This document shows positions 1,788 to 44,495 of a stretch of DNA of 44,495 nucleotides, one piece after another (the stretch's first letter is position 1; every line of letters starts with the position of its first letter). The notes under the pieces were generated by a model, which saw nothing but the letters and a program-made list of their open reading frames with translations, ran no database searches and was not told where the DNA came from. Source of the stretch: a virus; the IMG/VR virus record IMGVR_UViG_3300030233_000023, positions 1 through 44,495 of that record, one strand, 5' to 3'. Position numbers and translations under genes: made by a program.

Positions 1788-1852
1788 ACCGATATTAGCC
1801 TATTAAGCCCAACGGTTTGGGTATGGTTAGTTTTGGATTAAAAAATTACTTA

Positions 1853-2047: not shown

Positions 2048-2183
2048 ACCACAACGGAGGAGTATAACCGCAGTAGCGGATTAGAAAGCACGAATGGTTG
2101 AGTTAAATTAAATATTAATAAAAAGCAATAGTGTTAAAACCAAGCACTACAACCGCTATTGCTGTTATACATTGTTGTAGTGC
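2048..2183. repeat. attC-like folded recombination site A
   Basis: Nested inverted repeat in the order expected of an integron attC. Outer ACCACAAC (2048-2055) opposes GTTGTAGT (2174-2181) with one mismatch. A long inner arm (2062-2079) opposes 2153-2170 with 16 of 18 bases complementary. Spacers are unequal, GGAGGA on the left and ATT on the right. Total length of 136 bases is within the range known for attC. The outer cores keep the AAC/GTT triplets but do not match the canonical RYYYAAC/GTTRRRY consensus fully. Confidence 0.6.
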
Positions 2184-2468
2184 GTTAATTATTATGGCAA
2201 ACTGGAAAAGATACAGACTAAAAACTTATGCGGTTGAAGATTACAGACCGCTTGTGTTTAATGAAAAACACCCTTGGTGGTGTAGTGGATATGGCGAAAA
2301 CTCAACTGGCGAATACGCTGTAATTATAGCTTATTTACCTGAAAGCGAAGATTTGCTTAAATATTGGGATGATGCTTTTGAAGTTGAGTTTACAAAAGAA
2401 GAAAGCATAAGTTTTTCTTCAAGATTCCCGAAACCTGAATACTTTGTAGAATCTTAATGCACTACAAC
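2174..2468 (+). mobile_element. Integron-cassette-like unit 1
   Basis: A single small gene (2194-2457) lies between GTTGTAGTGC (2174-2183) and its exact reverse complement GCACTACAAC (2459-2468, 2 bp after the stop). In integron gene cassettes the core at the start of the cassette is complementary to the inverse core at its own end, which is what is seen here. The attC-like site A immediately precedes. No integron integrase is present in the window. Confidence 0.55.
2194..2457 (+). CDS. Cassette-borne hypothetical protein, 87 aa
   Basis: Starts at ATG 2194 (MANWKRYRLKTYAVEDYRP...); a longer frame upstream would run through the attC-like repeat and is rejected. The product is acidic and rich in Trp and Tyr, with no recognised domain. 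It is the only gene between matched complementary ends (2174-2183 and 2459-2468), with short flanks and no promoter of its own, as in integron cassettes. Function unknown. Confidence 0.65.
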   Translation: MANWKRYRLKTYAVEDYRPLVFNEKHPWWCSGYGENSTGEYAVIIAYLPESEDLLKYWDDAFEVEFTKEESISFSSRFPKPEYFVES

Positions 2469-32486: not shown

Positions 32487-33583
32487 TACTAAACTCACGA
32501 CCATTCCAGACATTAGGTTCAGCGATAGGTGAAATACCCGTCGAAATAACACACTTTAGGGGCTACCACTTAGACTTCGGTGCGCCACGAATAGATAAAT
32601 ACGGCCTTTCTATTGACCCGTCCGTAAGGGAATCAAACCCCCAAAGGTGGCAGGATTGGCTTGACCTTGTAAAAGAGAAAGATGTAAAGGTAGTGTGGAC
32701 GGTTTCTACGCTTAAGTCTTTCGCCAATATAGCCGAAGAAATTGATGTCATCCAAGAAATTGATGAATACTGCGGCGCGGGGACAGTGGATAAACTTCAA
32801 ATCGGGGGTGAGTTTTGGCTACCTAAATACCGAACGGGAGACACAAGTAAAAAGGGGTGCTACGAGCAAGTAACCATCTCAGACTATAAAATTATGCTGC
32901 GCGATTACATCCCCGCTCTGCAAGAAGCATTCCCCGATAAGAAATGCTTTGCATCGTGCGCTTCTTTTAAGCCCGGGGCAACATCGCAATCGGAAGTATA
33001 CAGGCGCACTTTTACCGAAGAAGTCATTGAGTTCCTAAATAAAAACGACAAGCAGAACTTAGTCGGGCTTACCTTCCATTATTACGCGGGCGCAAAAGGA
33101 AACCAAGACGGGGAAGAAGTTGTATACACGGACATCGACTTTAGTTTTATTGATGAGGTAAGATTGATAGCCGACAGGCAAATTATCATCCCCGAAGCGG
33201 GGTGGTACAGGGGTGATGATTCGGATGAGCAGTTTAACAAGATGGGGCAGTTTTTAGACGAAATGAACGACGCCTTGGAGGCTGATGACTTACCCGGCCT
33301 TCATGTATTGCAGACACCTTATGGCGGCCCCCATGCTTGGTTTAACACAAGCGGGAGAACGATTGTCGGCAATTATTGGGCAGATGAATATTTTGCGGGG
33401 GCGCCGCCTATCGAGCCAACACTTAAAGCAATCCTACCGCCGACTAAGCGCTTTGTTATTTACGGCAAGCAACATTTAGAATTTACCGACGGATCAATTC
33501 ATAAATACGTGGTTTGGATCGGTAGGTTTAAATATGACAGGGACGACATAGGAAAGCCTAAATCATTTTTTGGTTTGACCTAG
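32483..33583 (+). CDS. TIM-barrel glycoside hydrolase-like protein
   Basis: 366 aa. The sequence reads as a (beta/alpha)8 barrel: VEITHFRGYHLDFG, VKVVWTVSTLKS, LQIGGEFWLP (candidate acid/base Glu, ~110), FASCASFKPG, VGLTFHYYAG, IIIPEAGWYRG (candidate nucleophile Glu, ~238). The two-Glu arrangement after strands 4 and 7 is that of clan GH-A retaining hydrolases. Coupled by ATGA to the beta-helix gene, so a polysaccharide depolymerase pair is plausible. Exact GH family not identified. Confidence 0.6.
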   Translation: MILNSRPFQTLGSAIGEIPVEITHFRGYHLDFGAPRIDKYGLSIDPSVRESNPQRWQDWLDLVKEKDVKVVWTVSTLKSFANIAEEIDVIQEIDEYCGAGTVDKLQIGGEFWLPKYRTGDTSKKGCYEQVTISDYKIMLRDYIPALQEAFPDKKCFASCASFKPGATSQSEVYRRTFTEEVIEFLNKNDKQNLVGLTFHYYAGAKGNQDGEEVVYTDIDFSFIDEVRLIADRQIIIPEAGWYRGDDSDEQFNKMGQFLDEMNDALEADDLPGLHVLQTPYGGPHAWFNTSGRTIVGNYWADEYFAGAPPIEPTLKAILPPTKRFVIYGKQHLEFTDGSIHKYVVWIGRFKYDRDDIGKPKSFFGLT

Positions 33584-40796: not shown

Positions 40797-41084
40797 GTTA
40801 GCTGACGAAGTGAACTGTAAAAATTACGATTATGAAAGTACAATATAGAATTGCAAATAGAAATGGAGACTACTACCCACAGGTTAGAACTAAGAAGTTT
40901 TTGTTTTGGGGTAGTTGGAAGAAAATAGCCAAACACCCAACAGGATATGGAATGTATGGGCTACCAAGCACAGATTACCCTAAAACAAAAACGGAGTGTG
41001 AAGAGATAATAACAGGCTTTGATAAATGGTTTAAGAATGAGAATACTGTAAACGAAAGTTATAGTAATTTTTATTGCAGCTAAC
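40797..41084 (+). mobile_element. Integron-cassette-like unit 2
   Basis: Gene 40832-41083 lies between GTTAGCTG (40797-40804) and the exact complement CAGCTAAC (41077-41084, overlapping the stop codon). The left end has no attC arm before it, as for a cassette inserted at a non-attC position. The right end continues into a complete attC-like site that is shared with unit 3. Confidence 0.55.
40832..41083 (+). CDS. Cassette-borne hypothetical protein, 83 aa
   Basis: MKVQYRIANRNGDYYPQVRT... is basic at the start, rich in aromatic residues. The TAA stop is part of the inverse core of its cassette end. No family recognised. Matched complementary ends and very short flanks suggest it arrived as a cassette, as with 2194 and 41190. 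Confidence 0.65.
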   Translation: MKVQYRIANRNGDYYPQVRTKKFLFWGSWKKIAKHPTGYGMYGLPSTDYPKTKTECEEIITGFDKWFKNENTVNESYSNFYCS

Positions 41085-41174
41085 GGCTCAGTATAAAAAA
41101 TCGGGCGCAAATCCCCAGCTACGAAAAAAGGCGTAAACGCTGCCTGCGTCTGTTTTTTATACATTGTTGGCAGC
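41077..41174. repeat. attC-like folded recombination site B
   Basis: Outer CAGCTAAC (41077-41084) opposes GTTGGCAG (41166-41173) imperfectly, as expected when the two halves come from different cassettes. Inner GTATAAAAAA (41091-41100) pairs perfectly with TTTTTTATAC (41153-41162). Spacers GGCTCA (left) and ATT (right) repeat the asymmetry of site A. Length 98 bases. Confidence 0.6.
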
Positions 41175-41431
41175 AGTAACGGATTTGAAATGGCAAACGA
41201 CAAAAAAACATTAGCGTATAGTGGATTGACTGACACTATATTTTACATTGACGGAAAAGGTAAGCAAGTGGACTTGCCAAAAGGAAATTTTATTCAGATG
41301 GTGCTTCTTTGGTTGAATGAGGGCGTACTTCCGAAAGTAGGTGAGAAGTTTCAAAGGACAATTGCGGTTAAAGGAAAGGTGCATTGGAAGATAACGATTG
41401 AACGAGTGGCAGAGTAGTTATTGCTGCCAAC
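41166..41431 (+). mobile_element. Integron-cassette-like unit 3
   Basis: Gene 41190-41417 lies between GTTGGCAGCA (41166-41175) and TGCTGCCAAC (41422-41431), 10 of 10 complementary; extending to 15 bases gives 14 of 15. This matched pairing of start and end within one unit, stronger than the local pairing in site B, is the expected signature of a cassette. Confidence 0.6.
41190..41417 (+). CDS. Cassette-borne hypothetical protein, 75 aa
   Basis: MANDKKTLAYSGLTDTIFYI continues with DGKGKQVDLPKGNFIQMVLLWLNEG, a compact alpha/beta protein with no recognised family. Sits 15 bases from the left core and 5 bases from the right core. Function unknown; small cassette genes of integrons often encode toxin-antitoxin or defence-type proteins, but nothing supports that here. 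Confidence 0.65.
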   Translation: MANDKKTLAYSGLTDTIFYIDGKGKQVDLPKGNFIQMVLLWLNEGVLPKVGEKFQRTIAVKGKVHWKITIERVAE

Positions 41432-41454
41432 GGACGAGTATAACCGTTCGGGCG
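41423..41454. repeat. Half attC-like site after unit 3
   Basis: GCTGCCAAC, spacer GGACGA and GTATAACCGTTCGGGCG repeat the left half of site A (CACAAC, GGAGGA, GTATAACCGC). No matching right half (GTTATAC-ATT-GTT) follows before the gene at 41491, so the site is truncated or decayed. Confidence 0.5.
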
Positions 41455-41490
41455 TGAATTAGTAATTAACTTTCAAAATATAAATGACTT

Positions 41491-41829
41491 ATGAGTACAC
41501 AAGAAAACTTCAAAAATGCAGAAACTAAGACTGACGGTTATACATTGTTATCTACTGGCTGGCATTCAGTAGAAGACCGTCCATTATTCACGAAAGATGA
41601 GCGTGGGCATTGGATATGTACCGAAGATGGTGACAAAGAATTTATTGCAGCCCTTCCTTATAATGACAAGCGAAGACCAAATGAGGAACTTTGGTGGATA
41701 AGGCATTGTGTGGTAGAAGATGAAATAGGGCTGTGTGTAGTAGGTGATGATGATAATGAACCTGCGGGTTGGGGTTTGGAAGACGTAACGCATTGGATGC
41801 CGATGCCGTCTCCGCCAGCTTGTAGATAA
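41491..41829 (+). CDS. DUF551-type protein, 112 aa
   Basis: Ends with VTHWMPMPSPP, the 'HWMPLP.PP' signature of DUF551, and begins the domain at GWHSVEDRPLFTKDERG (usual 'W.sv.drlP'). It is acidic and soluble. No matched cassette ends surround it. Paralogue of 39339 in type only. Function unknown. Confidence 0.65.
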   Translation: MSTQENFKNAETKTDGYTLLSTGWHSVEDRPLFTKDERGHWICTEDGDKEFIAALPYNDKRRPNEELWWIRHCVVEDEIGLCVVGDDDNEPAGWGLEDVTHWMPMPSPPACR

Positions 41830-41853
41830 CTACTTATAAAGACCACGACAAAA

Positions 41854-42493: not shown

Positions 42494-42551
42494 GCGGATC
42501 TGCAATTGACGTCAAATTAGAAAACCCAAAAAACCCAGTGGGTTTTTCAAT

Positions 42552-42576
42552 AACCCAACTTTTCGTTGGGTTTTTT
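42552..42576 (+). terminator. Intrinsic terminator after early operon
   Basis: Perfect 8-bp stem AACCCAAC / GTTGGGTT with loop TTTTC and a T run. Ends the transcript of the exported protein gene. Confidence 0.85.
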
Positions 42577-42579
42577 CAT

Positions 42580-42629
42580 AACCAATAGGTTTGTCAATAA
42601 CCAGTTGGTTTTGCAATAACCACTAGGTT
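42580..42629. repeat. Three 19-bp-spaced AACC-N4-GGTT dyads (iterons)
   Basis: AACCAATAGGTT (42580-42591), AACCAGTTGGTT (42599-42610) and AACCACTAGGTT (42618-42629) are each 19 bases apart, with the linker TTGTCAAT or TTGCAAT repeated. Each is a dyad with four central bases. Protein-binding array. Confidence 0.65.
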
Positions 42630-42780
42630 TTCGTCTAGTTTTCACTCAAAAACTATTTTAGGTAATTATTAACACACCCCTCAAAGCCTTTGTTGACGCG
42701 GCTAAAAACCCAAAAAACCCAGTGGGTTATTAGGGAAACCGAAAAAACCCAATGGGATCATAGGGCGTTCCTGATAACCC

Positions 42781-42816
<36 letters not shown>

Positions 42817-42930
42817 TAAAAAAACCTGCAAAAAAAAGGGTTGGGTTATGCAGGCAAGCAAGCAAGATTTTTTTTATGTTTGCCGAGATCTTAATTCACT
42901 CCGGACGGTGGTCTTGCCTTAAACGGGTTT

Positions 42931-43962: not shown

Positions 43963-44383
43963 CAAACATCCAAGAAATATAGGTAAACCCAGGCTTTTAC
44001 AAGAACCATCAGAACTTTGGGATCTCTTTGTAAAATACCGGGATTCTGTAAAAAAAGAAGCTGAAAAATGGGCGACCATCCAATTTGTAGGGAAAAACGG
44101 TAGAGCAGAAAAAGTAATTCCTAACCTCCCCATGACCATCGACGGATTTCATGTTTTTTGCTACGATAATATCGGAATTGTCGAACCCTATTGGTATAAT
44201 CGGGACAACAACTACGCAGAATATTTACCCATTGTTTCGCGCATAAAGAAAGAAATTCGTGACTGTCAGATCAAAGGCGCTTTAGTGGGTCAGTATAATC
44301 CAAACCTAACAGCCAGGTTAAACGGATTAGGCGACAAGCAGCAGATCGAAAAGCAGAAGATAGTCGTCAAAAAGCCCGAGTAA
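43955..44383 (+). CDS. terS: Terminase small subunit
   Basis: 142 aa. Begins MPNKHPRNIGKPRLLQEPSE, followed by helices (LWDLFVKYRDSVKKEAEKW) and, near the middle, NLPMTIDGFHVFCYDNIG; the C-terminus is basic (LGDKQQIEKQKIVVKKPE). This matches P22 gp3-like packaging proteins that recognise the packaging site and load the large subunit. Its last codons lie in the terminal repeat and are seen again at 1-29. Confidence 0.75.
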   Translation: MPNKHPRNIGKPRLLQEPSELWDLFVKYRDSVKKEAEKWATIQFVGKNGRAEKVIPNLPMTIDGFHVFCYDNIGIVEPYWYNRDNNYAEYLPIVSRIKKEIRDCQIKGALVGQYNPNLTARLNGLGDKQQIEKQKIVVKKPE

Positions 44384-44495
44384 TGGAATATTGGCTCGCT
44401 TTCACAATTTTTTTGTCGTTGGTCATTATTGTTTTGTGGAAAAGCGATAACGACGATATGGCGATGTAGGATAATTCAAGCGATACCCGAACGAG
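44355..44495. repeat. Right copy of 141-bp terminal direct repeat
   Basis: Identical to 1-141. Holds the end of the small terminase gene and the whole 28-aa membrane protein. Confidence 0.95.
44383..44469 (+). CDS. 28-aa membrane protein, second view
   Basis: Copy of 29-115 within the terminal overlap; one gene in the closed genome. The start overlaps the small terminase stop (TAATG). Confidence 0.5.
   Translation: MEYWLAFTIFLSLVIIVLWKSDNDDMAM

Follow-up and report, generated by a model that had tools for sequence, protein, structure and literature searches.

Integron-like cassettes without an integrase in a phage genome and related hairpin arrays in Bacteroidota

Can a phage that encodes no integrase carry integron cassettes, and if so, which enzyme would move them? 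The question is raised by a viral record of 44,495 nucleotides (IMG/VR IMGVR_UViG_3300030233_000023; here called the window, meaning the whole stretch of DNA that was analyzed), in which small genes alternate with hairpins resembling attC sites. In view of a 141-bp direct terminal repeat (1 to 141 and 44355 to 44495), the phage genome in this record is probably complete, having been assembled as a circle. Its terminase small and large subunits are recognizable, and it most likely infects a host within the Bacteroidota. A search for PF00589 tyrosine recombinases across all 44,495 bases returned none, in agreement with the initial annotation, which had described a two-gene, integron-cassette-like array in a phage without integrase.

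Cassette units at two loci of the phage

That annotation was correct in the coordinates and sequences of both genes, of the two core pairs, of the spacers GGCTCA and ATT, and of the inner stem, but the array proved to be larger. Three cassette units, with two attC-like hairpins, lie in the flagged region (Table 1), and with the hairpin and unit of a second locus the phage holds at least four cassettes. Where a single complete attC-like site had been reported, the second hairpin is complete as well, its 3′ arm, CGGTTATAC-ATT-GTT, being situated within gene 3, whose N-terminal ∼20 residues are encoded by the hairpin. This arm encodes the peptide DGYTLL. An attC loop of this kind, enclosing either a whole small ORF or the start codon and leader of the following gene, is also present on the minus strand of Polaribacter phage P12002L (L145, 39510 to 39700). 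The second-locus array stops directly after the AAC of its unit. With at least two attC sites within 4 kb (41082 and 41429) and no integrase, the window is a phage-borne CALIN.

Table 1. Coordinates of cassette units, genes and hairpins in the window
Feature	Coordinates	Strand	Sequence or remark
Cassette 1 unit	40797..41084	+	core GTTAGCTG (40797-40804), inverse core CAGCTAAC (41077-41084)
Gene 1	40832..41083	+	83 aa; stop codon overlaps AAC
attC-like hairpin 1	41082..41168	+	AAC-GGCTCA-GTATAAAAAA..TTTTTTATAC-ATT-GTT
Cassette 2 unit	41166..41431	+	GTTGGCAGCA (41166-41175) to TGCTGCCAAC (41422-41431)
Gene 2	41190..41417	+	75 aa
attC-like hairpin 2	41429..41549	+	AACGGACGAGTATAACCG..CGGTTATACATTGTT; loop holds start codon and leader of next ORF
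Cassette 3 unit	41547..41830	+	GTTATCTACTGGCTGG (41547) to CCAGCTTGTAGATAAC (ends 41830); ends 14/16 complementary
Gene 3	41491..41829	+	112 aa; C-terminal part similar to DUF551 (Pfam PF04448, E 2.2e-4)
attC-like hairpin, second locus	2053..2176	+	GTATAACCGCAGTAGCGG stem; found by script for AAC-stem-loop-stem-GTT
Cassette unit, second locus	2174..2468	+	GTTGTAGTGC (2174) to GCACTACAAC (ends 2468)
ORF of second-locus cassette	2131..2457	+	108 aa; start codon within hairpin 2053-2176
Possible decayed half-site	1809..1822	+	AACGGTTTGGGTAT; by sequence alone, unmatched by model R1

Each unit opens with a core and closes with a complementary inverse core, with GTT as the exchange point, an arrangement found both in the window and in the host arrays described below. 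The window cores (GTTAGCT, GTTGGCA, GTTATCT and GTTGTAG) are regular in GTTR alone and do not conform to the full GTTRRRY consensus, as had been noticed. The reported extension of one core pair to 14 of 15 complementary positions is accurate, and its single mismatch, at position 11, coincides with a G·T position that is fixed throughout the family.

Cassette 1 has no upstream hairpin of its own; its start resembles one in P12002L (GTTxxCTGACGAAGTGAAC). Relatives of gene 1 were sought in viral contigs and none were found. Gene 2 shares 93% amino acid identity with L160, and the substitutions, distributed 8/1/19 over the three codon positions, confirm that it is coding on the plus strand. PADLOC, used to look for defense genes, matched none of the window's cassette genes, and no nucleotide relatives were found among annotated phages. 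Elsewhere in the window, the noncoding segment before the terminase genes (42520 to 42760) holds a run of short AACCCAACTTTTCGTTGGGTT-type hairpins with varied arms, and a GATA microsatellite of roughly nine units lies at ∼42781 to 42817.

A covarying hairpin family in viral contigs and bacterial chromosomes

Pattern scans retrieved the same hairpins from further viral contigs and from Bacteroidota genomes, and in other taxa gave some matches attributable to chance. From 30 diverse sites we built a covariance model, R1. Its stem comprises 16 pairs, with 92.9% of cells paired; the covariation score was 0.602, compared with 0.146 ± 0.019 for shuffled alignments (0 of 500 shuffles), and covariation was lost when the arms were slid against each other. 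This is the imperfect inverted repeat typical of attC, conserved in structure and variable in sequence and loop. In the window, R1 matched 41422 to 41556 (E 1.5e-10), 41075 to 41175 (E 1.1e-9) and 2046 to 2183 (E 4.6e-8), the training set having included near-copies of the first two sites (L011 and L026) and excluded the window's own rows. These matches exclude a chance origin of the window sites. As a plain DNA fold of the minus strand, hairpin 1 alone is unremarkable (z −0.68); the case thus stands on covariation, cores and context rather than on fold energy, and on these grounds the attC-like character claimed for the cassettes is borne out.

R1 matched 65 of 80 genomes in one sample of Flavobacteriaceae, the family of a Zunongwangia genome (E up to 0.01). 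Among 395 Bacteroidota genomes there were matches in at least 61 (E up to 1e-4), a lower bound since few candidates were scored per genome, and in a specificity control scored in the same sparing way at least 1 of 299 Pseudomonadota genomes matched (E up to 1e-4). Two Saprospiraceae genomes (G015 and G016; L106 and L110) carry a second hairpin family, which shares the AAC-6-stem-2-GTT plan, has different stem sequences and occurs near IntI-like recombinases or their remnants. A candidate promoter motif, TANNTTTG, forms a small cluster near the attC-like hairpins, ∼80 to 100 bases before GTT on the folding strand.

In a small survey of eight complete genomes, the sites formed large one-directional arrays, with 72 sites in G084 (none on the other strand), 52 and 44 in G030, and 19 in G087. 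Such arrays, of dozens of cassettes, are present in many marine Flavobacteria and are barely recorded by standard integron surveys; IntegronFinder 2.0 reported a single complete integron in Bacteroidetes proper, in Salinibacter ruber (PMC9024848). The suggestion of a divergent, host-specific cassette class holds insofar as this is a Bacteroidota class, but the class is neither rare nor confined to phages, given the large Flavobacteriaceae chromosomal arrays with an integrase of their own.

In four host arrays the ends of units matched at 5.5 to 6.6 core positions within a unit, versus 2.3 to 3.1 within a site and 2.4 to 2.7 for random pairs. The pairing of ends within units and not across the shared site, which had been pointed out for the window as integron-like and recurs in all four host arrays, indicates that cassettes were inserted one by one. 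Near-identical cassettes have been reshuffled at exact AAC/GTT boundaries. Among duplicated near-identical units, all 86 pairs share the 5′ hairpin (in the sense of the folding strand), with an identity of 0.989, compared with 0.693 for the other hairpin and a background of 0.658; no pair is contrary, although many derive from a few cassette families, so that the pairs are not independent. Since the 5′ hairpin travels with the unit, the exchange point is the AAC of the 5′ arm, or GTT on the other strand. It is extremely improbable that the units are two-ended transposons of the ordinary kind, or MITEs, with short inverted repeats at their termini. An inverted repeat of 8 to 16 bp does bound each one, but it varies among units, whereas the intervening hairpin is shared; we saw no transposase within the units, and the long arrays run in one direction (72 sites versus 0 per strand).

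One of the phage cassettes shows the same behavior. Cassette 2 and hairpin 1 recur in viral contig L026 (IMG/VR 3300017989_000265) with 90.2% nucleotide identity from the AAC at 41082 to 41428, whereas the 60-base flanks are 57% and 60% identical, approximately the level of unrelated sequence aligned with gaps. High identity inside and unrelated flanks indicate that cassette 2 moves together with hairpin 1. The recurrence of gene 2 with exactly conserved cassette ends is the opposite of what would have spoken against cassettes, namely the same genes in related phages without conserved ends. A near-copy of hairpin 1 is present in L026, and hairpins of the same type as hairpin 2 were found in contigs L006, L011, L015, L020 and L029. 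Of 23 viral records with family sites, many of them fragments, 20 lack a tyrosine recombinase. None is present either in viral contig G114 (L058), which has the largest viral array encountered, with 28 attC-like sites at ∼69 to 92 kb of the 93-kb record.

Folding strand and gene polarity

The two strands of these hairpins are not equivalent. On the AACGG..GTT strand, stem mismatches were G·T rather than A·C in a ratio of 411:10 in four host arrays and 106:17 in viral sites. The G·T pairs occupy fixed places: inner-stem positions 7 and 12, and position 11 of the outer stem, 14 bp long, in which the two ends of a unit pair (position 11 in 127 of 147 bacterial units). Such wobbles could provide the strand choice that extrahelical bases give in integron attC sites. 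As a DNA fold, the AACGG..GTT strand was the more stable one in 140 of 147 host sites (linear form) and 33 of 40 viral sites; the window's own sites showed little or no difference between strands in the linear form and a clearer one when joined.

In classical attC sites, it is the bottom strand, with respect to the gene of the cassette, that folds. The host arrays conform to this, as genes lie opposite the folding strand in 156 of 172 units and precede their attC in the canonical manner; the longest ORFs reach ∼160 to 186 aa on the opposite strand versus 58 to 85 aa on the folding strand. In viral units the polarity is inverted, 42 of 45 having their gene on the folding strand, as do those of the window. 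The ORFs of viral cassettes are compact, starting inside the hairpin or just past GTT and ending at AAC. A "mirror-image integron," in which the host arrays would be the inverted ones, was ruled out by the ORF analysis, which places host genes on the strand opposite the hairpin strand; host polarity is thus canonical, and the viral cassettes alone are inverted. The phage had been proposed as a vehicle for integron genes, but because gene polarity relative to attC is reversed between virus and host, it is not simply a carrier of host cassettes. We hypothesize that the reversed polarity marks a partly separate pool of phage cassettes whose reading direction follows that of the phage operon.

The coincidence of folding and coding strands in viruses invites another reading, in which the hairpins are RNA elements of phage operons, such as 5′ UTR structures or terminators, and the units are swapped by homologous or illegitimate recombination at conserved junctions. 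The viral hairpins do precede ORFs and can hold start codons, and tolerance of G·T would suit RNA. In the hosts, however, the same wobble asymmetry is found on the strand opposite the genes and so is not a feature of mRNA. An RNA role would also leave the unit-specific complementary ends, the exact AAC breakpoints and the neighboring recombinase unexplained, and a search of Rfam gave no match, which speaks against an RNA family. We consider this reading unlikely.

The array-associated recombinase and the source of mobility

Inspection of array-bearing genomes revealed a tyrosine recombinase of 374 to 457 aa at the array end, its 3′ end facing the array. Twelve loci have this one relative orientation (G084, G030, G040, G056 twice, G061, G077, Formosa, Robiginitalea, Zunongwangia, L107 and L104, the last two being Bacteroidales/Paludibacteraceae contigs). 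No such recombinase was found near the large array of 19 sites in G087. The protein contains PF00589 and PF13495 domains, and its N-terminal ∼95 residues have no confident family match. Against TIGR02249, the integron integrase model, it gave a two-piece match below the cut-off. In a phylogenetic tree it grouped with IntI1 and other IntI proteins, separated (100/99) from the XerC and XerD proteins of its own hosts, long branches being flagged in this tree and the exact place of IntI weakly resolved. The distance between the GKGxKDR and HxLRH motifs is 58 to 59 residues where measured, versus 99 to 100 in IntI1 and a Shewanella IntI, so that the IntI-specific insertion of ∼41 residues is missing. 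In classical integrons this insertion is held to be essential. Between the integrase stop codon and the last cassette, 30 to 115 bp from the stop, most loci have a conserved, AACTRGTTATAT-like sequence that we regard as a putative attI; it differs in sequence at Robiginitalea and G056, and an Olleya contig is broken just beyond an attI-like sequence.

These observations make it very likely that the phage region is a cluster of integron cassettes lacking an integrase, the enzyme being supplied in trans by a host recombinase that is a sister of IntI. Of this, the analysis demonstrates the site grammar, the covariation, the strand asymmetry, the exchange of hairpin plus unit at AAC, a putative attI, the linkage of integrase and arrays, and the lack of a tyrosine recombinase in the window. 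Each cassette would be a circle-capable unit of one hairpin (attC) and one small gene. The hairpin strand of the phage DNA would become exposed as a single strand, for example during replication, and the AACGG..GTATA..TATAC..GTT strand would then fold, with strand exchange at the AAC/GTT core. The enzyme acting on the folded hairpins, inserting or removing cassettes at AAC/GTT, would most likely be the host array integrase; we infer that this recombinase cuts these sites and moves the phage cassettes. The broader proposal, that Bacteroidota phages keep their own pool of inverted-polarity cassettes, in which translation starts inside attC and which is exchanged between phages by a widespread, insertion-less IntI-sister integrase of the hosts, has in our estimation an even chance of being correct.

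Could the cassettes instead be classical ones, recently acquired from a Proteobacteria-type integron and moved by canonical IntI? One Bacteroidales MAG does encode a canonical integron integrase (L108, 8490 to 9464; TIGR02249, 381 bits), and the same MAG carries the array integrase of L107. In E. coli, moreover, IntI1 can recombine one attC of P12002L with attI1, showing a strong bias for one strand (PMC9892861). But sites of the family are almost lacking in Pseudomonadota (1 of 299), the recombinase adjoining the arrays is not canonical IntI, and a script found no family site near L108. This origin is therefore very unlikely. Canonical IntI was also rejected as the enzyme from the genome side, the TIGR02249 cut-off being exceeded in just 1 of 16 genomes.

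CALINs in phages were already known from Qi et al. 2023, who included P12002L, where HattCI reported sites (PMC9892861). Their attC clusters without integrase are like that of the window, and P12002L shares the hairpin family, with five R1 matches at E below 1e-5; from its position beside two methyltransferase genes, the attC that they tested is probably an R1 site. That study linked no Bacteroidota host platform and read the P12002L sites as divergent in direction, whereas the present analysis defines the site family, its folding strand and the reversal of gene polarity. The host arrays resemble sedentary chromosomal integrons such as the Vibrio superintegrons in their long runs of one-gene cassettes, the attC downstream of the host gene, the folded strand opposite the genes, the putative attI adjoining the integrase and the core G^TT. 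They differ in having GTTR-only cores, complementary ends of up to 14 bp with a fixed G·T, a wobble-marked folding strand, and an integrase that lacks the IntI insertion and has ∼95 additional N-terminal residues. Treponema integrons, from another phylum, likewise have an integrase transcribed toward attI in the same direction as the cassette genes (PMC3607928), and the catalytic and core-binding domains are common to the array integrase, XerA, XerC, XerD and IntI4 (PDB 5hxy, 4a8e, 1a0p and 2a3v). A literature search, whose scope did not extend to preprints and most subscription papers, found no description of the Flavobacteriaceae arrays, and an earlier one is possible; the widespread host platform, the insertion-less integrase, the folding-strand G·T wobbles and the opposed viral and host gene polarity are apparently new.

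If the arrays are integrons, most of one Flavobacteriaceae sample holds a large hidden reservoir of cassettes, and the same chemistry is exploited by phages. How single-strand hairpin recombination arose from Xer-like enzymes is a question on which an integrase lacking the IntI insertion bears directly, and the opposite polarity in phage and host makes cassette traffic between them directly testable. Within the G030 array (L130 to L132), near position 33478, one cassette gene itself encodes a protein resembling tyrosine recombinases; it has an additional domain at the C terminus, and its catalytic motifs seem to be altered.
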